The position numbers were made by a program, and so were the translations under genes. The notes below the pieces were generated by a model. It was not told where the DNA came from and made no database searches. It was given only the letters and a program-made list of their open reading frames with translations. A DNA stretch of 64,000 bases from the NCBI GenBank assembly GCA_021432605.1, contig MU271144.1, positions 2,662,606-2,726,605 of the forward strand. Reading direction: 5' to 3'. This document shows, piece after piece, positions 28,655 through 54,271 of the stretch (positions are counted from its first letter, which is position 1; each line of letters opens with the position of its first letter). Source of the stretch: Coniochaeta sp. PMI_546 (Eukaryota > Ascomycota > Sordariomycetes > Coniochaetales > Coniochaetaceae).

Positions 28655-29968
28655 CTATTCCACCTTGGCATCATCAGCTACACCAACGGACCCAAACGTC
28701 GGAGACTTGTCAACCTTGGTACATCCACTCAACCTGGCCTCACCTTCGGCACCCGGCATGTGTATTGCGCCGGCACATGGTCGGAAATACTGTCTGAGAG
28801 TCTCAGTGGCCTCGCGCTCGCGCTCCAACCCCAGGGATCTCGCCGCATCCAAGCACCGCTGCCGAATCACGTCCGGCGCATCGTCGCAGTAGCGGATGAG
28901 AGCATCCGCCACCAGCCGGAATCCTTGCGACTTCGGCGTCTCAAACCTTACCATGCCGCGGTGGTCGGCAGCAATAGCGGCCCGCTCCGTGTCGTCGTAC
29001 GTCGGGGCGGCGCTCTCGCGGGTGACGATGTAGGCGCTGCCGAGCCGGCCGGGGAAGGGCGTCGGGTCCTGCTCCCAGAAGAAGAAGATGCTGAAGTTGC
29101 GCATGATGGGGACGAAGTAGTCGGTGATGTTCTGAAGCGTTTCAGACTCCGTCTCAAGTGCATTGACTAGGTCAGACCTGGACATCTTGCCACCTGTGGC
29201 GATGGCGCCGAGCTTCTTGATGTAGTTCAGGTAGGTTGCTGCGGAGGAGCCCTGAGTGTGTTGGTCAGGCTGAAGTGAGAAACGAGAGTTAATGGTGGGA
29301 ACGGCCACTAACATGATGAGGGGTGCCGAAGAAGAGGATGCCGTAAGTGCAGCTGAAGATGGAATAGTCGTGAGAAACCTTGTACGAGGTGCGAGTCTGG
29401 GCATAGGTCAAAGCCTGGAGGAGCCAAGTTAGGTGTTTGGATTAGCAAAGCTAGCATTGTGATAATATACTTACTCGCTTCACGATGATGCCGCCGAGGG
29501 AGTGGCAGAGGAAGATGATCGGTTTGTCGGCCATTCCGGAGAGCTGGACCCTGCTTAGCAGTTGCTCCATCCTTGGTGAGAGGGACTTACTCGTCTGTCC
29601 GCAGCCAGGTTTGCCACGAGAGTGTGGGCGTGATGGTGGATGCGGTCCTTGGTGGGACGCCCGCCGGTGAGGGAAGTGAAATCAGCGTTGAATCCCCATA
29701 CTAAGATACGGGCGTTTTTGACGTGCTTCGGAAGAAATTGGGGGTCGTTGAGCCAGCAGCTGCCCGATTCGGTCGTCCATGTACTCAGCGCCCCCCCGTT
29801 GAGACCATGAACCGCAACAATGCTAGGTTGGTTAGGTCGCCAGACTCGATTGGGGGACGTGGTGGCATGAGGACCTTGGACTCACTCAACCTCTGGTTCT
29901 ATAGAGTCCGGGGGCCTGTAAAGCTCGTGAATTCCATACAACTTTCCCTGAGGCTCGGCAATTTTCAT
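28655..29968 (-). CDS. SERAC1/SesB-like alpha/beta hydrolase, catalytic motif intact
   Basis: Free-standing serine-hydrolase-like protein of 360 residues from five exons: 29886-29968, 29591-29822, 29475-29543, 29313-29414 and 28655-29251. The fold is recognisable as the lipase-like domain that fungi place at the front of many NLR proteins. Visible motifs are DIVAVHGLNGGALSTW (oxyanion HG), KPIIFLCHSLGGIIVKR (nucleophile Ser120), ILFFGTPHHG and AADHRGMVRF (likely catalytic His). It is clearly homologous to the first 290 residues of the NLR 3 kb away, sharing PIIFLCH.xGG, TRTxxKV and FFGTPH, but keeps the active residues. There is no NB-ARC or repeat domain. Substrate unknown; lipid or acyl ester hydrolysis is a family-based guess. 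The acceptor of exon 3 (29544) was chosen for frame. Confidence 0.85.
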
Positions 29969-30440
29969 CTTGAGTAATGCCACCTCCGTCCGATAGAAGG
30001 GAGTCAATGAATTTTAGGAATGATATTGTGGAGCAGACGGCCGTGGTGTTTCTGCATTTTAGCCACAGGGCCGCCTGGACGCCTTTCCACTGTCCTGTTG
30101 AAGGGGCTAGCCTTCGTTTGGGTCTGGAAACATGATACCAGGGTTGGTATGCAGTCCGAACTTGAGTGTAGGTTGCACTGCCTAGTCTCAAACACTTAGA
30201 CACGTCTCGACAGGGTCAAGGCGGCTCGTCGGCCAATAACACGCCAAAGTCTTATCCCCAGGAGTGCTTCTTAGAAGGAGGGTGGGAGGGGGGACGAGTA
30301 CAAGTCAAGACCCAGCTAGGCCAGTTTCCGAGCGACCACTGGTTGCTGATGACTCTACTGGTAGAATTGGTGCATGCAGCAGTTCATAGGAAAACTTAAT
30401 GGGTCTCTGAGTATACAAAAGAGTCAGGTCACACAGGTGA
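29969..30440. other. intergenic
   Basis: 472 bp between the 5' end of the hydrolase and the 3' end of the P450, both on the minus strand. No gene seen. Confidence 0.55.
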
Positions 30441-32102
30441 CTAAAAGCTTCTGCTAACAGTGACCTTGCACCCATCAGCACTTGAGAGTACGAGTGTCAA
30501 GACCTGTCGTTCTGTCCCTACCGGCTCTGCCTTCTGCCCTATTGGCAGCTCGATAAGAGAGAATGTTTGGAGGAGTCGCACAACTGTATACGAGACTTCC
30601 ATCAATGCGAAATCCTCCCCGAGGCACTGTCTAGGACCACCGATGAAGGGGAAGTAACCCCAACCAACATCGGTCAGTTCCCCAGTCTCCCATCTTTCCG
30701 GGCGAAAACTGTCTGCATCTTGGCCAAATATGTTCTTCTTCCGTGAGTTCACGTACTGCGAGAAGACAACCATCTCTCCCTTCCTAACCATTATCGGGCT
30801 CGTGCCATCCGGGCCTCCCCCTGTTGGAAGTAGAGTGGTCTTGACAGCCTCACGGTTGTTCAGCGGGACGGGCGGGTAGAGTCGAAGACTCTCTTTTATC
30901 ACACAGGCCAGAAATGGCATTTTTCTGATTTGTTCGCGTGTTGGGCTGGTCAGGTCACCCATAACAGTTTTAATTTCGCGACGTAACCTTTCCATGACAG
31001 CTGGGTGGCGGACCAGAAGACGAAAGGTCCATGATAAGCAACACGCCGTCGTGTCGCGCCCTGCGAGCAGGACGTTGAGTAGTTGATCACGAAGATCCAT
31101 TTCGGTAGCGGACTCCTGTGCGACTTGTCTGATGAACCAGGAGGCCGAGTCCTGTTGTGCCACATCGCAACTTCCGTAGGCTTCATGCATGAATCCATGT
31201 TCGCGGATATATCGCTCGACAAAGCGGTGTACATTACGACACGCCTTGCGGAAAGCCGGGGGGTTGTACATGAAGTGGAACGGGGCAAGTCGAAATCGTT
31301 TCGCAAGACCCTCCTGTGCAATGTTGAAGCTCTCGGCAAATTCTCGATTGTCAACGGCCTGGTCGATATCGGCCCGCAAGCTGTAAACAGATTGTCCAAA
31401 GAGCAGCTCCGTCGCGATATCCAACGTGAGGTTGAAGAAGAGCGGCTGCAGATCAACGACCCCGTCGGGCATGCGGTCTATCAGATTTCCAACGTGCTCA
31501 TCAAAGTAACGCAGGTCTTGATATTGCGCACGAACAAACTGCTTTCGCAAGAGTTGCCGTGAGTGTTTCCAGGCAGCCCCTTCCTGAGTGAAGATACCGT
31601 GGCCGAGAAGCGGGGAAAAGACGGCCGGCCGGCATCCAAATCCGTAATCCTTGAAGTTCGTCGAGAGGAGGACTTCGACATTCTGCGGGTGCAGAACATG
31701 ATAGGCGCGAGGGCCGATCAACAAATATTGGCACAGCATGTTTCCGGGTTCGTAGTCCTTCGCGATCGAGCACAGGAAGGCGAGAAGACGGCCATCAGCA
31801 TTAGATTCCCAGAGTTCCTTGATGCGGTCGACTCCTAAGGGCCACCGCTTTGGAAGCTCCGGCGGCAATCCGCAACCATGCTCGCGGCCGTAGAGAGTAT
31901 CAGTCTCATATGATCATCCGTGTTAGCAAGACGGGTTGGAAACAGACATTGGCAACATTCTCACCCGGTATTCCCATGCTTTTTTGAGTACATTATAGAC
32001 GACGTGCGCAATCGCGAAGCTGGCAAAGCCCAGTATCAATGCGCTAAGCCGCCAGCTTGTGGTCGGATCGCTCTCGACGGCTCTGAGGGGCGGAAGTCCC
32101 AT
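30441..32102 (-). CDS. cytochrome P450, CYP52-like (alkane/fatty-acid hydroxylase type)
   Basis: ER-anchored haem monooxygenase of 533 residues. Exons are 31965-32102 and 30441-31904. Exon 1 encodes an N-terminal membrane anchor (LSALILGFASFAIAHVVYNV). Exon 2 opens with REHGCGLPPELPKRWPLGVD, the cysteine-proline pattern typical of CYP52 and its relatives. Canonical motifs are the I-helix LLAGRDTTACCLSW, the K-helix KESLRLYPPVPLNNR, the PERW region DSFRPERWETG, and the haem ligand FIGGPRQCLG (Cys near residue 473). Family members hydroxylate the terminal carbon of n-alkanes and fatty acids; the true substrate here is unknown. The position between the free hydrolase and the NLR could be chance. 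Confidence 0.92.
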
Positions 32103-33007
32103 ATCTCCCTGATAGTGTTCGTGAGAACATTGATCTCAGTGCTCAGCTCGTACAGCGTACGGGGGGACAGCGGTTTCGCATCCTTTTCTACGATAATACA
32201 ACATAGGCAGCCGAGGGCAGCGTGACCTCGAAGCGCTCTGCAGCTGCCCCTGACCCTCCCCACCTCCACCGAGCCGGGGACTTGCATGTGCGCCAAGCGC
32301 TGCGCGAGCGGTCGGGGAATCGGCCGGCGGATTGCGGACGGTCCCTATTGGCCAGAGTCCACATTCGCATTTGCTGCAGCAAACCACCCACGTCGATGAA
32401 TGTCTATGCAACTTATCGAGAGGAAAAGGTATGTGTACATCACACAGAATGAGGTAAGTACCTTACCAGGTAGGTATCTAAGGTGCCTCTAGTCAACATC
32501 ACGATTGCACCCGTCCATGGATAATAGTTTCAAGAAGACGCCGGTTCACAGTAAATAGGCACGGCACTGTCGTCATTTCCTATACAGTAAAGCTTATTGT
32601 CATCATAATTCATACTATCAGACATTATCGCGAGATACTTTGTGTAGTTTTCGATCAGGCTGCGCGGAAACTTGGTACCTATAAGCCGTACCAAGAGCAC
32701 CCGGCCAATCTTCCCAGTCTGTGTTCGGGGTAGAGGTACCTTGCCCTGAGACAGGACCGCCCTTCCCGCTCGGCCTACCAACCTACCAGCACTCCTGCGT
32801 CGGCCAGCCCCCCGCTCTTCCGCTGCTGCACTTTCAACACAAAGCCAGTAGTCGCCAGTCGGCAGGACGGCACTCGTCGCAACGATCTCTCTCAGCCTGA
32901 GGCTTGGGCGACCTCCAAGGACGTCGTCGATATCCAGAGGACGCACTGCCCTGGGACAGATATAGCGTCAAATATGTCAATGAATCGCCCACTAACACCT
33001 TTGAAGC
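32103..33007. promoter_or_regulatory. divergent region, P450 / NLR
   Basis: 905 bp between start codons. A minus-strand frame at 32530-32946 has mixed codon use and no family signal, so it is not called. Both promoters should lie here. Confidence 0.5.
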
Positions 33008-36000
33008 ATGCTGCTGGGTTTGGAATGCCTTCATGACGCCGGCCGCGGGGCCAACCATGAGGAGGAATTGGTCGAGTATGTTTCCAGTGTTCTCCGTCAG
33101 TGCTCTAATTCGGTACAGGTTCTAACCATAACCGTGACTTAGTATTGTCGCGGTCCACGACATCCACGAAGACTCACTCGAAGCATGGACTGATCCGAAG
33201 TCCAAGGTCAACTGGCTGCGGGATTTCCTGCCACAAGATGTCCGGGTCGGCAGGGTTCTCGCATACGGCTACGATTCGTCGGCATCAGCTCTCTTTGCGA
33301 GCGAGGCGGGCGAGACCATACAGAGAATGGCAGAGTCTCTCGTTCAGGAGCTTAGGGCTGATCGTCAGTTCGCCGGCACGCTGAGACGGCCGATCATCTT
33401 CTTATGTCACGGCATGGGCGGAGTACTGGTCAAGAAGAGCTTGGTATATGCCTCGACGCGGACCGCCCCGAAAGTCGCCCATCTGTGGGACCACTACATT
33501 TCAACCTTTGCAGTCATATTCTTCGGAACACCACACGGACACGCAGACAAATCAGCCTGGCTGGAGTACGAAGCCATGTCAAGGCCAGCGCGACACCCAC
33601 TTGTCCAGACTGGAATCCGCCTCAGGTCTACGGAGAAGGGTGATCCCCAGATGCCTCTCTTGGTGGACAACGATTTTGCGCCGCTTGTAAAACAGTTCCA
33701 TCTGTTCTTCTTCTGGGCCGAAGTTACAACGCGTTTGAACAACCGGCCGGTTATTCTCGTCGACCACAAGTCGGCTGTGCCAACGCTCGACAATACAGAA
33801 TCAGCCGGTATTCACGCAAGCCATTTGGACATGTGCAAATTCGGCTCCAGGACGTCCTCCGATTATCGCACTGTTATCGCGGCGCTCGCTACATACTGTC
33901 AGAAGGCGCCTGGCATCATCTCTCGCCGTTGGCGGCTTGCAGACGCTGAATTGAAAAGACGCAGGATGGGCGAGGCCCAGGAAATAATGGGCGAAGAGAT
34001 CGTTGGATTTGACGTCCACCTCGAAGAGCTTTTTAGAAGCACCGGAATACGCTCCCGTGCCACCGGTATACTGCATTTCGACATTCCCGAGGAGGTTTCG
34101 TCGACCTTCATTGGTCGCCAAGACATGCTCAGGGTGTTGCGCGATGCCTTCTTCCCTGGTGGTGAGCCAACGTCGTCCCCGGGTCAAAAGTCTTTCGTCA
34201 TTTTCGGTATGGGGGGCTCCGGGAAAACAGAGTTGTGCTCCAAGTTCGCCAACGACAATAAGCACGAGTACACGGCCGTGTTCACCATTCGCGCAGCCTC
34301 CCCCGAGACTATCAAGGAGTCGTACTGCAACATCGGTCTGCTCGCTGGACTACAGCCGACTGAAAGTGCCGGGCGACACTTTCTGGCTCAGCAGAAGGAA
34401 CCGTGGCTTCTCATAGTCGACAATGCTGACGACCCATCCTTGCAATTGTGTCGTTTATTCCCCCCTGGAGGTGCCGCCCACATCCTCATCACAACGCGAG
34501 TCCGCGACTTCCGCCAGGACGGGACAAGGGGGTCTCTCGAACTCAAGGGGCTAAGAGAATCCGAAGCTCTGCAACTACTGCTTACAAGGGCCAATATTCC
34601 GCGTCCGTGGGACGACTCAGCTGCGGAGGAAGGAGGTCGGATTGCAAAAGCGTTGGGCTACCTTGCCCTGGCGCTGATCCAAGCTGGAACCTGTGTTTAT
34701 CGAGGGGTGTGCGAATTAGCAGGCTACCTCAGGATCTTGTCGGAAGTTAGGGAGGAAAAGCTATACCAAGAGACGTCCGCCCGAGAGTCGCCTGACGAGA
34801 TTGATCCTAGAATCGACATCATGAAGGTGGTTTATTCGACCTTCGATGTTTCACTCAACCACTTGGTCAAGAGCACCAATGTCCAGAGTCAGGACGCCTC
34901 AGACCTGTTGAACGTCCTCGCTTTCTGTCACTTTGAGCTCATCCCCGTGGAACTATTCTCCCGGGCCTTGACGAATCAGGACAGACATCTCAGCGGCCCC
35001 CTTTCGAAGTCATGGGTTTCCAACGCGGCTCATGGATTACTCCGACGCCTTGAGCCACCAACGCCTCTACCGCGCTTCCTAAAATCGAAGAACAGGAAGA
35101 TTGCGGAGCATCGCATCAAGGTTGCGCTCGCGAACCTGCAATCACAGTCCTTTATTCGCTGTGACGGGAAGTTCATCTCGCTGCACCCGCTAATTCACTC
35201 GTGGGCACGGGACAGGTTGACGGTCTCACAGCGACATCTGTGGTCGTCGATATCCTTGAACATATTCATGGAGTCCATTCTGCTACCGCCAACGGGCAAT
35301 ACGAAGACAGATGGCGAGTTTCACAGAGATGCTATTCCACATTTAGAGGCATGTTTAGCGGTTACCGGAAACCCACTGCCACAAGCTACTACTGATCTGG
35401 GAAGAATCCGGTTGCAGCTCGTTGGATTGCTTCGGCCATCCTTTCTACTAATTGTCCGCAACCAGGTCACCATGCACGCTAAGTGTGGTTGGATTTTCGC
35501 CGAGCGAGGTCACTTTGACAAGGCCGTAATGCATCTCCACACGGTCAGGACCATGTTGATTAAGCTCCGCGGCGAAACGGACGAGAAGACAATGAGCGCG
35601 ACTCTTGGTCTGGCCGGTATATATTGGGGTTTGGGACGCATGAAGGAAGCCATTGATCTGCAACGCTTGGTTGTGGAAACACGGACACGCATCTATGGAA
35701 ATGAGGATGGCCGAACTCTCCAGGCCATGGATAAGCTAGGGCGATCCTACTGGTTGCACGGTCAGTACCAAGAGGCCCTCGACCTGCAACAGGTTACCTC
35801 GCACCGGATGAAGAAAGTCTTGGGGGAGAGCCATCCTGAAACGCTCGAGGCGTTGGACAACCTCGGAGTCACGCTGGGTGCTTGGCATAGATTCCACGAA
35901 AGCCTCGAAATCCACCAGTTCGTCCTAGAAGCGCGGCTCAAATCCCTCGGAGCCGCGCACCTGGATACGCTCAACACGAAAGGTAATCTTGCCATGGCTC

Positions 36001-36674
36001 TCCTAGACATTGGTCGTCTCGACGAGGCAAAAGCAGCCATGGCCGAAGTCTACACCCAGAGGCAGAAGCAACTTGGCAAAGAACACCCCTGGACTCTGTG
36101 GGCTTTGTGTTATCTCGCCAAGATCGACATAGAACTAGGATTGCTCGATGAGGCTGAGGAGATGCTCACATGGGGTATCGAGGCAGCGACGAGGAGCTTG
36201 GGCGAGAAACACCTTGGCGTTCTCATGGGCCGTGGACAGCTTGCCCAGATATACGCTATGACGGGAAGACTTGACGAGGCTCAGAAAAACACTGAGGAGA
36301 TCATTGTCCTGGTCGAAGAATCCCGAGGAATCGCGCATCCAGACTGCGTTTACGGGCTTTGGAGGCTGGCGCGGCTGTATGTGCGTCAGGGTTCAAGGGT
36401 GAAGGCGAAGAAGACCTGCGAGCTGGGATTGCAGCGGGCAGACATGCGGATTACGCGGAAGCATCCATTGGCAAAACAACTGGAAGAGCTGTTAGATGGC
36501 CTTCAAGATCCAACGTCCACAGTTGCTGATTTGCTCAACATTAGACCGGCCAAGTCAGCATCAGTGGTCACCCAGAAAGCCCCAAGAGCCGGTGATAATG
36601 CTGAGAAGGAGGCTGTACAACGTTGGAGAAGTTTGAGTCTGCTTTCAGGCAGCGGAAGAGTTCCGACTTGGTGA
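33008..36674 (+). CDS. NLR-type protein: inactive SesB-like hydrolase domain, NB-ARC, TPRs
   Basis: Signal-transducing NTPase of the fungal NLR type, 1199 residues, exons 33008-33075 and 33143-36674. Residues 1-290 are a hydrolase-like domain homologous to the gene at 28655-29968. Here the nucleophile motif reads CHGMGG, with Gly113 in place of Ser, and the oxyanion loop reads VHDIHED instead of VHGLNGG, so esterase activity is unlikely. NB-ARC follows: P-loop FGMGGSGKT (about 377-385), Walker B WLLIVDNADD, sensor HILITTR, and ALGYLALALIQAG at the GxP position. From about 790 to 1130 are 42-residue kinesin-light-chain-like TPRs, for example LGRSYWLHGQYQEALDLQQV and LDNLGVTLGAWHRFHESLEI. Known: such proteins act in fungal non-self recognition or cell death. 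Ligand and output here are unknown. The start is in exon 1 (MLLGLECLHD), whose GA|T junction restores VDIVAVHD. Confidence 0.92.
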
Positions 36675-52184: not shown

Positions 52185-53531
52185 TCATGCCGCATAACCC
52201 CTCAACTCCGGCTCCCTCGTCAAGCGCGGCTGGAAAGCCAACAACCTTACAGCAGCAGTAACAATCTGCCCAGCCGTAGCAGTGGCATCACCCACCGTCA
52301 GTCCAGGCGCTACATAAGTCTTACACACGGCTTCCAAATCAATCCTCCCCAAGTTCGCCGGACCAGGATGGCTCAGCGCATCCACAGCCAGCGCCGCAGT
52401 GAGCGGGCTAAACAGCATTCCTGCATGGCCGTAGAAACTCCCAGCCGGCTGCCCAAAGCACGCCGCCTGCGCCTCGACGTTGGTAACGCCCACCCCCCTC
52501 CCATCTCGCAAGAAAGCGGACGCTAAGAGATCCTGCTGCGGCTCGACAATCTCGTCAAACACGCCCGAGTAAACCGTCGTAGTAGGCACATACGCGTCCG
52601 CACCGCCCTTTGCCCGCAGCGTGGTGACAAAGTTTGAGTCGTACTCCTGCTGGATGACACTGGGTGGACAGGGATCGAAGTCCGTCTTGCCCGGGCTAAG
52701 GCACAGCGCTGGTGCGAGCACGGTCCCGTGGAAATCCGGGCTGACGGCAATGAAGTCCGAGACTACGGTGCGAGTCGACGGCCAGAAGGCGAAGGCCCAT
52801 TGCGTGTCCAGCCCGCCCTGCGACCAGGTTATGATGCTCACGTTGGCGCTGTTGCTGATGCCCGAGATGTAGTTGATGGCGTAGGCCACATATTCTGCGT
52901 TGGACTGCGCGTCCGCCAAAAGAGCGCCGGGGACATTGAGCCAGACTGGATCCGCGAGTGGGGAGTCTGAGAGCAGTTTGAGAAGGTTGTAGGTGAATGC
53001 TTCGCCGCCGTATGTCCCCGTCCCAGGCACGAATATCAGAGGTGGTTTTCGGCCGTAGGTGAAGGAGCTTGGGATGAAGATTGCTGAGCGGAGGTCCTGC
53101 TCGGACTGGGAGTAGGGGGCATCGGATTTGATCTTCTGGGGATGAATAGACTCCGTTGTGTTCTTGGGGTTGTTGTTATTTGTTGAACCCAGCGGTGTGT
53201 AGGGCGCAACAAGGTCAGCGGAGACGTCTGGGCTGCTAATGCCCACATCGATCTGTGCATTGACGCCAGCGTAGAAGTTGATGTTGCTACTGCCCCAGAC
53301 GGAGGCAAGGCTAAGCCGCAGTTCTTCCTCAGTTTTCGGCGCCGGAACCTTAGGCTTTTCAGCAAGCAGACCGCTGAGGATGTCAGTCCTATCCCCAGTG
53401 TCAGCGGCTGAGGCCAACCGTCTGGTGAGCAGGTCATCACTCGAGGGCTCGCCGGCGGACCTGTAGGGCACTGCATTCGCACCGCGGAGAAGAAGCAGCA
53501 ATGTCGATATGAGACACCCCGTGATATACAT
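52185..53531 (-). CDS. secreted CalB-type lipase
   Basis: Extracellular lipase/esterase of 448 residues in one exon, with a signal peptide (MYITGCLISTLLLLLRGANA, cut after residue 20). It resembles Candida antarctica lipase B: oxyanion-side VPGTGTYGG (168-176), nucleophile elbow TWSQGG (Ser237), acid SGVFDEIVEP and base GHAGMLF. A pro-region of about 100 residues precedes the fold, and several N-glycosylation sequons (NTT, NVS) fit secretion. All catalytic residues are present. Members hydrolyse triglycerides and many esters. Neighbours on the same strand are a sugar transporter and an oxidoreductase, suggesting nutrient use, but no proven cluster. Confidence 0.92.
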   Translation of the reverse strand: MYITGCLISTLLLLLRGANAVPYRSAGEPSSDDLLTRRLASAADTGDRTDILSGLLAEKPKVPAPKTEEELRLSLASVWGSSNINFYAGVNAQIDVGISSPDVSADLVAPYTPLGSTNNNNPKNTTESIHPQKIKSDAPYSQSEQDLRSAIFIPSSFTYGRKPPLIFVPGTGTYGGEAFTYNLLKLLSDSPLADPVWLNVPGALLADAQSNAEYVAYAINYISGISNSANVSIITWSQGGLDTQWAFAFWPSTRTVVSDFIAVSPDFHGTVLAPALCLSPGKTDFDPCPPSVIQQEYDSNFVTTLRAKGGADAYVPTTTVYSGVFDEIVEPQQDLLASAFLRDGRGVGVTNVEAQAACFGQPAGSFYGHAGMLFSPLTAALAVDALSHPGPANLGRIDLEAVCKTYVAPGLTVGDATATAGQIVTAAVRLLAFQPRLTREPELRGYAA

Positions 53532-54271
53532 CTTGTATAGTCAAGGCAGACCTTCGTATCAAGGTTGTCGATGAGTGAAATCACGGAGTGGTCGCGCTGA
53601 AACCAAGGCAGGCTTCCAGGGCCTCATGGTCTCATCGCGGACTAAATATAATGACGATGCACACAAAGACGTGTTCTGTCCTTGGAGCTCGCGACATGGA
53701 GGATTCACATGTCTGGGTCCGCTGCCGACAGACACGGCATTTGGATCTGGTCAATCACTTCCCGAACTAGTTAGCTAATGGTGATGTTCCCAATCTGCTG
53801 GGCACCGTGTCTGGCTTCCCCACACGAGGGTTGCAGAGCTAGACTTTTCTCGGTGAGCGGGTGTATTCTTAGCGGCGGCGATCACAAAACAGAGGTCAAG
53901 CGCCAGTTGTGATGCAATTCGATTCATCGGTTTGTCATGAATGTCAACATCCAAGGAAACATGGGTTTGACACATCCCGCGGGTAGGCGTCGAGTTTTCC
54001 AAATTGGTACCGTAAGACGAGCTACAACCCTGATGTATATGGGATGAGTATGGGGTTTGTGTATGTACCACGAGTATGGTTATTTCAGTTTGCTTGGTAT
54101 GACCTGACCAGCCGTTATTGCTATGGGGTCTCTAGCACTCCTATAGCCCTCCACTTTTGTAGCGTTTGGAGTTCCTAGAGAGTCCCATATGCAAGCTAAG
54201 GAATCGATGACGAGTGACGCTATTAGCTTCGAGTCTGTCATGAGCCTGAAAGCTACCTCAGACATGCTGCC
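53532..54271. other. intergenic
   Basis: 740 bp upstream of the lipase; no supported gene. Confidence 0.55.

Follow-up and report, generated by a model that had tools for sequence, protein, structure and literature searches.

A SesB-like hydrolase gene linked to an NLR gene whose SesB domain has lost catalytic residues

What use can a hydrolase domain be to an NLR once its catalytic residues are gone, and does it matter that an apparently active relative is encoded close by? Few N-terminal domains are commoner in fungal NLRs than the SesB-like ones, about whose mode of action little is known. Where a dead copy takes the output position and a live paralogue is close by, there is a concrete, testable pair, and such a pair lies in the stretch of 64,000 nucleotides from Coniochaeta sp. 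PMI_546 analyzed here (the window, at its full length). STAND receptors usually carry their output domain at the N-terminus. Should the NLR need the hydrolase, the general idea would be that of non-catalytic output domains acting through an enzyme in trans; should it not, the pair would show that an NLR can make use of a SesB domain that does not catalyse.

Gene modelling confirmed two genes where the earlier note had placed them, one at 28655-29968 on the minus strand and one at 33008-36674 on the plus strand. The first encodes a free SesB-like alpha/beta hydrolase of 360 aa, identified by gene model, Pfam and conserved-column alignment. Its five exons (29968-29886, 29822-29591, 29543-29475, 29414-29313 and 29251-28655) are separated by four GT-AG introns and give 360 codons with no internal stop, and the codon of the nucleophile Ser120 (CHSLGG) is found at 29499..29501. 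The second encodes an NLR of 1199 aa in two exons (33008-33075 and 33143-36674), also with no internal stop, where an N-terminal pseudo-hydrolase domain (33008..33977) is followed by a P-loop NTPase/NB region (GMGGSGKT, 34080..35210) and a C-terminal TPR array of the kinesin-light-chain type (35583..36437). At the nucleophile-elbow position of the NLR (CHGMGG) the codon is GGC, for Gly (33411..33413). The 5' ends of the two genes are 3.0 kb apart on opposite strands, and the pair is linked and non-adjacent, as a cytochrome P450 ORF (30441..31913, minus strand; PF00067, E 2e-58), with an extra 5' exon to about 32102 as judged by eye, sits between them. This P450 was absent from the earlier note. 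A gene-model artefact was ruled out, since both models are open, have GT-AG introns and carry the family motifs in frame, and a decaying NLR pseudogene was ruled out by the main exon, a single open frame of 1178 codons. No tandem DNA repeats were found in the NLR gene, thus there is no sign of near-identical repeats. Elsewhere in the window (52185-53540, minus strand) a TWSQGG motif marks a lipase-like ORF that, judged by eye, is not related to SesB. Overall, we consider it nearly certain that the locus consists of an intact SesB-like hydrolase gene linked to an NLR gene whose SesB domain is, by sequence, dead.

In Pfam the free hydrolase matched Abhydrolase_6 above the cut-off (E 8.9e-06) and DUF676 below it (E 0.0015), and it shows the HG oxyanion loop, the GxSxG-like elbow and the conserved Glu and His of SesB proteins. 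The TPR part of the NLR matched TPR_12 (E 3.1e-38), every nSTAND, NACHT and NB-ARC match in the P-loop NTPase region was below the cut-off, and the NB-TPR part scored 297.5 bits against NCBIfam FxSxx_TPR, just under the cut-off of 300. For the N-terminus of the NLR there was nothing beyond two matches below the cut-off, Abhydrolase_6 (E 0.054) and DUF676 (E 0.13); we call it SesB because it matches the linked hydrolase (E 1.5e-49, 35% identity) and because of its predicted fold. With a SesB-type domain, a P-loop NTPase and TPRs in one protein the NLR belongs with the SesB-like/NB/TPR NLRs, and the effector domain lacks an intact active site (G34D, S120G and E222A). Each of two further searches returned a single weak match, PHROGs to the TPR part of the NLR and PADLOC to the hydrolase (PDLC02918, E 2.6e-07).

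The state of the active site was read from aligned domains, with positions given in free-hydrolase numbering. The free hydrolase keeps the oxyanion Gly34, the nucleophile Ser120, Glu222 and His259, and so all four residues are present in what the earlier note had described as a 360-residue stand-alone SERAC1/SesB-like hydrolase with all catalytic motifs. Three of the four are lost from the NLR domain (G34D, S120G, E222A) and only His259 is kept; the claim that an NLR 3 kb away bears a copy that, judged by its residues, is catalytically dead was thereby upheld, the distance being 3.0 kb. Conserved columns, 26 in number, were those conserved to at least 85% in the 17 Ser-bearing SesB domains of this genome. 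All 26 are kept by nine of the 17, including the free hydrolase (26/26), which is itself one of the defining rows. The NLR row keeps 19 of the 25 columns where it has a letter, P19 being absent through row trimming and left out of the count, and the six that it lost are G34 (Asp), G37 (Glu), T42 (Ala), S120 (Gly), L194 (Glu) and E222 (Ala). The loss count alone is unremarkable, as the Ser-bearing row C7_1507088 loses nine; what is special is which positions are lost.

Gly34, Glu222 and His259 are each found in 17/17 of the Ser-bearing domains of this genome, and whereas Ser120 is 17/17 by construction, since the domains were picked for it, the other three are not. As a prokaryotic and viral yardstick we used 82 relatives, 80 from GTDB genomes (the best 80 of 101) and two from IMG/VR. 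Among their lettered rows Gly34 is present in 78/78, Glu222 in 73/79, His259 in 79/79 and Ser120 in 81/81, where the scan patterns for GTDB and IMG/VR allowed Ser or Gly and would mostly have missed other residues, and only Ser turned up. SesB-type domains occur in many bacteria (Nostoc, rhizobia and others) at 21-33% identity, and two of the first 25 relatives listed belong to long proteins with a P-loop. A profile of ten domains matched the solved hydrolases BlEst2 (6wpx, E 5.4e-06) and a triacylglycerol hydrolase (1qge, E 0.0067), and aligned SesB Ser120 with the Ser of VSYSKGG and GHSQGG, respectively. By alignment, it is on active-site positions that the losses in the NLR fall.

An AlphaFold2 model of the NLR domain (317 residues, with a 12-row alignment as input) reached a mean pLDDT of 76.2 and a pTM of 0.75, with low confidence for residues 146-168 and 302-317, and showed a strand (84-89), Gly 90 and a helix (92-105) at the elbow. 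Foldseek with this model gave 44 PDB matches at E <= 0.001, with modest query TM-scores of 0.33-0.45, and by title these were lipases, esterases, thioesterases and other alpha/beta hydrolases. The N-terminal domain of the NLR is thus predicted to keep the alpha/beta-hydrolase fold. With this predicted fold, the catalytic residues lost and the gene intact, the domain has the characteristics of a pseudoenzyme.

Is such a loss peculiar to the window? In the window's own 33.5-Mb genome 21 SesB-like domains were modelled with a spliced-alignment script, 20 of them near full length and one, on C15, a fragment; the weak matches C13:166982, C6:2466648 and C15:126726 were left out of every count. A P-loop then follows in 16 of the 21 (12 by pattern, four by eye), and none was seen in the examined stretch for the window hydrolase, C4:2402k, C12:702k, C3:2913k and C17:8.2k. 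Fourteen of the 16 domains before a P-loop show all four catalytic residues, the two exceptions being the window NLR and the fragment on C15, which has Gly at 120. Ser is found at the elbow in 17/21, which leaves four Ser-less domains, the window NLR and three others. The domain at C3:2913278-2914222 (CHGVGG) shares with the window NLR its three altered active-site positions (here G34D, S120G, E222G); no P-loop was seen there and a TPR-like stretch follows. At about 260.8-264 kb of C15 an NB-TPR NLR has a fragmentary SesB domain with GHGLGG and Glu222 kept. At C17:8167-9058 Ser120 is replaced by Cys (AHCLGG) and the oxyanion Gly by Ser, Glu222 is kept and no P-loop was seen. The domain names patatin, HET and, at C3, TPR were assigned by eye. 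NLR genes with SesB N-termini form clusters at C9:734-764 kb and C7:1508-1536 kb, and the N-terminus of the C7:1516k NLR is HET-like by eye.

Around each of the three other Ser-less loci ORFs of at least 110 aa were listed over 8.7-9.4 kb, and among the best-scoring candidates, where misses are possible, no second SesB match was found within 10 kb of C3:2913k, C15:260.8k or C17:8.2k. An intact free copy is accordingly linked to one of the four Ser-less domains, that of the window NLR, or to one of two if only NLRs are counted. The co-occurrence of free SesB genes with Ser-less SesB domains, for which the earlier note had suggested a survey, did not hold as a general rule in this genome, as the other three Ser-less domains have no linked copy. 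By sequence, Ser-less SesB domains recur here, for the most part with no active partner linked to them.

Kinship of the two window domains was analyzed in three trees built from SesB domains of this genome, all of which join the free hydrolase and the NLR domain as sisters, with support of 95/96 (20 rows), 98/95 (16 rows) and 98/92 (26 rows, with a bacterial outgroup). The C15 fragment is in none of these trees and the C3 row was cut at the domain end; four long-branch rows (C7_1507088, C17, C9_736722 and C9_732516) were left out of the 16- and 26-row trees, and the latter includes 10 of the 82 prokaryotic and viral rows. Next to join the pair is the Ser-bearing domain of the C12:60k NLR (C12a), with 92/97, 98/97 and 99/98 in the same three trees. 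The raw identity of the free hydrolase is 35% (99/283) to the linked domain vs. 38% (110/291) to C12a. AU tests did not reject the free hydrolase with C12a (p 0.064 in the 16-row tree, 0.252 in the 26-row tree), the NLR domain with C12a (p 0.062, 16-row tree) or the NLR domain with C3:2913k (p 0.104 and 0.188, respectively), and the best trees do not pair the last two. The NLR branch is longer than that of the free hydrolase (1.51 vs. 0.64 with 16 rows, 1.23 vs. 0.68 with 26 rows), and in a relative-rate count with C12a as outgroup the NLR had 49 and the free hydrolase 29 of 275 columns (p 0.031). With regard to the shared recent ancestry for which the earlier note had proposed a domain tree, the two are sisters in this genome and not members of distant clades, but at 35% identity the tie between them is, by sequence, an old one, and the AU tests leave alternatives. 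An intron at Asp28, phase 2, was dropped as proof of the pair, since it is present in 7/20 models and is probably an old family intron, although C12a is without it. Segmental duplication with the C12 locus was ruled out, as the surrounding 17.8 kb held no P450 match at E <= 1e-3.

The NB region has other relatives. In a tree of the 11 NB domains that a search with the window NB brought up, this genome's NACHT-type NLRs being outside it, the window NB groups with C2:1184k and C17:399k (88/93) and the C12 NB is in another group. The N-terminus of C2:1184k is patatin-like by eye, and no SesB match was found in 1.5 kb upstream of C17:399k. Since the NB groups with other NLRs than the SesB domain does, the two parts have different histories and were joined by shuffling. 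The sister relation of the SesB domains together with the other NB lineage would be compatible with transfer in either direction, from the free gene to the NLR or from the NLR to the free gene.

Is the linkage itself informative? With 20 loci placed, none of the sister pairs in the 20-row tree other than the window pair lies within 50 kb. Ranked by raw identity, there is one other locus whose best relative is no farther than 50 kb away (C9_736722/C9_762164, 30%, 25 kb), and the best relative of the window hydrolase is then C12a. The chance that a given locus lies within 3.1 kb is small (p about 2e-4), and with 21 loci 0.13 pairs would be expected within 10 kb, where two were seen, the window pair and C9:734k/738k, both members of the latter having Ser and a P-loop. 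A linked sister is explained equally well by tandem duplication and by function, and the sole hint of more than duplication is that the two genes, although long separated judging by their divergence, are still linked.

We propose, tentatively, that the hydrolase and the NLR form a two-gene receptor/effector unit, in which the hydrolase is the executor and is reached via the pseudo-domain. With the chemistry of the N-terminal domain gone, either the fold itself would signal or an enzyme in trans would do the work. Binding of a ligand by the TPRs would lead to oligomerization of the NLR, whose pseudo-hydrolase domains, unable to cut, may then dock, concentrate or release the active paralogue, a lipase-like executor. 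Pfam scans found no amyloid-type family in either protein, for whichever such motifs Pfam covers and with the tails read by eye only, and the dead homologous domain would therefore be the link between receptor and effector, a folded replacement for the amyloid motif. The points for such a unit are the losses at the active site, the open frame, the predicted fold, the sister relation, the linkage, the distinct NB history and the effector role that N-termini usually have in fungal NLRs, some of which are known with a free SesB-type lipase beside them; against it are the P450 in between, the opposite strands, C12a being nearer by raw identity, the AU tests, the three unpartnered Ser-less domains and the amyloid device of the known pairs, of which Pfam gave no sign. 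Those three domains (C3:2913k, C15:260.8k, C17:8.2k) also show that catalytic loss needs no linked partner, as would be the case if the window genes are uncoupled tandem duplicates, local SesB copies of which one is NLR-borne and dead, with an NLR that signals non-catalytically and independently of the hydrolase, and a linkage that is a leftover. SesB loci neighbour each other elsewhere as well (C9:734k/738k/763k and C7:1508k/1535k), and the longer NLR branch is what relaxed constraint would give. However, the kept predicted fold and intact frame indicate that the domain is not decaying freely, and the pair is down to 35% identity and still within about 3 kb. Coupled unit and uncoupled duplicate are, as we see it, about equally probable, the duplicate by a shade the more so, and each is a serious possibility rather than an expectation; the coupled unit is placed first for its sharper prediction.

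A different role for the same anatomy, of the kind suggested in the earlier note, is that of a guard or integrated decoy: a parasite factor would attack the hydrolase, and the pseudo-domain of the NLR would mimic the enzyme or sense its state and trigger defence. The intact enzyme and its linked dead homologue, as seen in sequence, and their sister relation in three trees stand; the guard or decoy role found no such support. A dead homologue fused to an NLR beside an intact cousin does fit a decoy, as do the differing histories of the SesB and NB parts and the longer branch of the NLR domain, and there are fungal proposals of this kind, in the cited passages, for CHK2/PRD-4-like decoys (PMC12258605) and a PLP-1/SEC-9 guard (PMC12881547). 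On the other hand, the dead domain occupies the N-terminal output slot and is neither an extra domain nor at the sensor end, with 35% identity it would be a poor mimic of the linked enzyme, there is no known attacker and the linkage is not general in this genome. We regard this role as improbable, and the two-gene unit is preferred over it because the N-terminus, where the dead domain is placed, is the usual output position. Still less probable is that the NLR domain is not inert, and has an alternative nucleophile or serves as a sensor of a lipid or acyl ligand. His259 and the predicted fold are kept, C3:2913k is altered at the same three positions as if under shared constraint, and a common origin of the two was not rejected (AU p 0.104 and 0.188). 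Yet in alpha/beta hydrolases Gly cannot serve as a nucleophile and an oxyanion-loop Asp should work against catalysis, and Ser120 and Gly34 are without exception in the lettered relatives (81/81 and 78/78; the best 80 of 101 from GTDB and two from IMG/VR).

Returning to the two-gene unit, how would it relate to known systems? Among the literature matches listed, which were without subscription papers and supplements, no fungal NLR was found described with a SesB domain that is inactive or lacks the Ser. According to the cited passages, fungal NLRs usually have their effector domain at the N-terminus, and there are known cases of a free SesB-type lipase next to an NLR (PMC4986451, PMC5485727, PMC7885112). 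SesB-like domains are there among the most frequent N-terminal domains, and the tripartite order of SesB-like/NB-ARC/TPR NLRs is the same as in the window NLR (PMC4986451, PMC12258605), which differs by the loss of three of four catalytic positions. The CHK2/PRD-4-like kinase domains of Sordariales NLRs, which resemble a free host enzyme and were proposed to be integrated decoys, are, as far as the cited text goes, C-terminal additions to complete NLRs (PMC12258605), whereas the dead copy in the window NLR is its own N-terminal domain. In PLP-1/SEC-9 a fungal NLR is proposed to monitor the condition of a second host protein (PMC12881547, PMC7159315); in the parts of these papers cited, SEC-9 is a SNARE and no homologue of a domain of its NLR, unlike the window hydrolase. 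Closest are the amyloid-coupled SESA/SESB/HET-eN sigma cluster of Nectria haematococca and the HELLP/SBP/PNT1 cluster of Chaetomium globosum (PMC5485727, PMC7885112), where, as in the window, a putative lipase (SESB, SBP) is encoded free in the cluster of the NLR, and the window pair would by analogy be a counterpart of SESB/HET-eN and SBP/PNT1. A wider class of pseudo-SesB domains would be pointed to by C3:2913k, with its changes at the same three positions. It is conceivable, although we would not count on it, that the pair represents a third type of fungal NLR/effector coupling, in which a dead homologous domain recruits or restrains the enzyme in place of amyloid templating or direct fusion. 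In the two amyloid systems, as described in the cited passages, receptor and effectors share a short amyloid motif, and the window NLR has a whole dead SesB domain instead.
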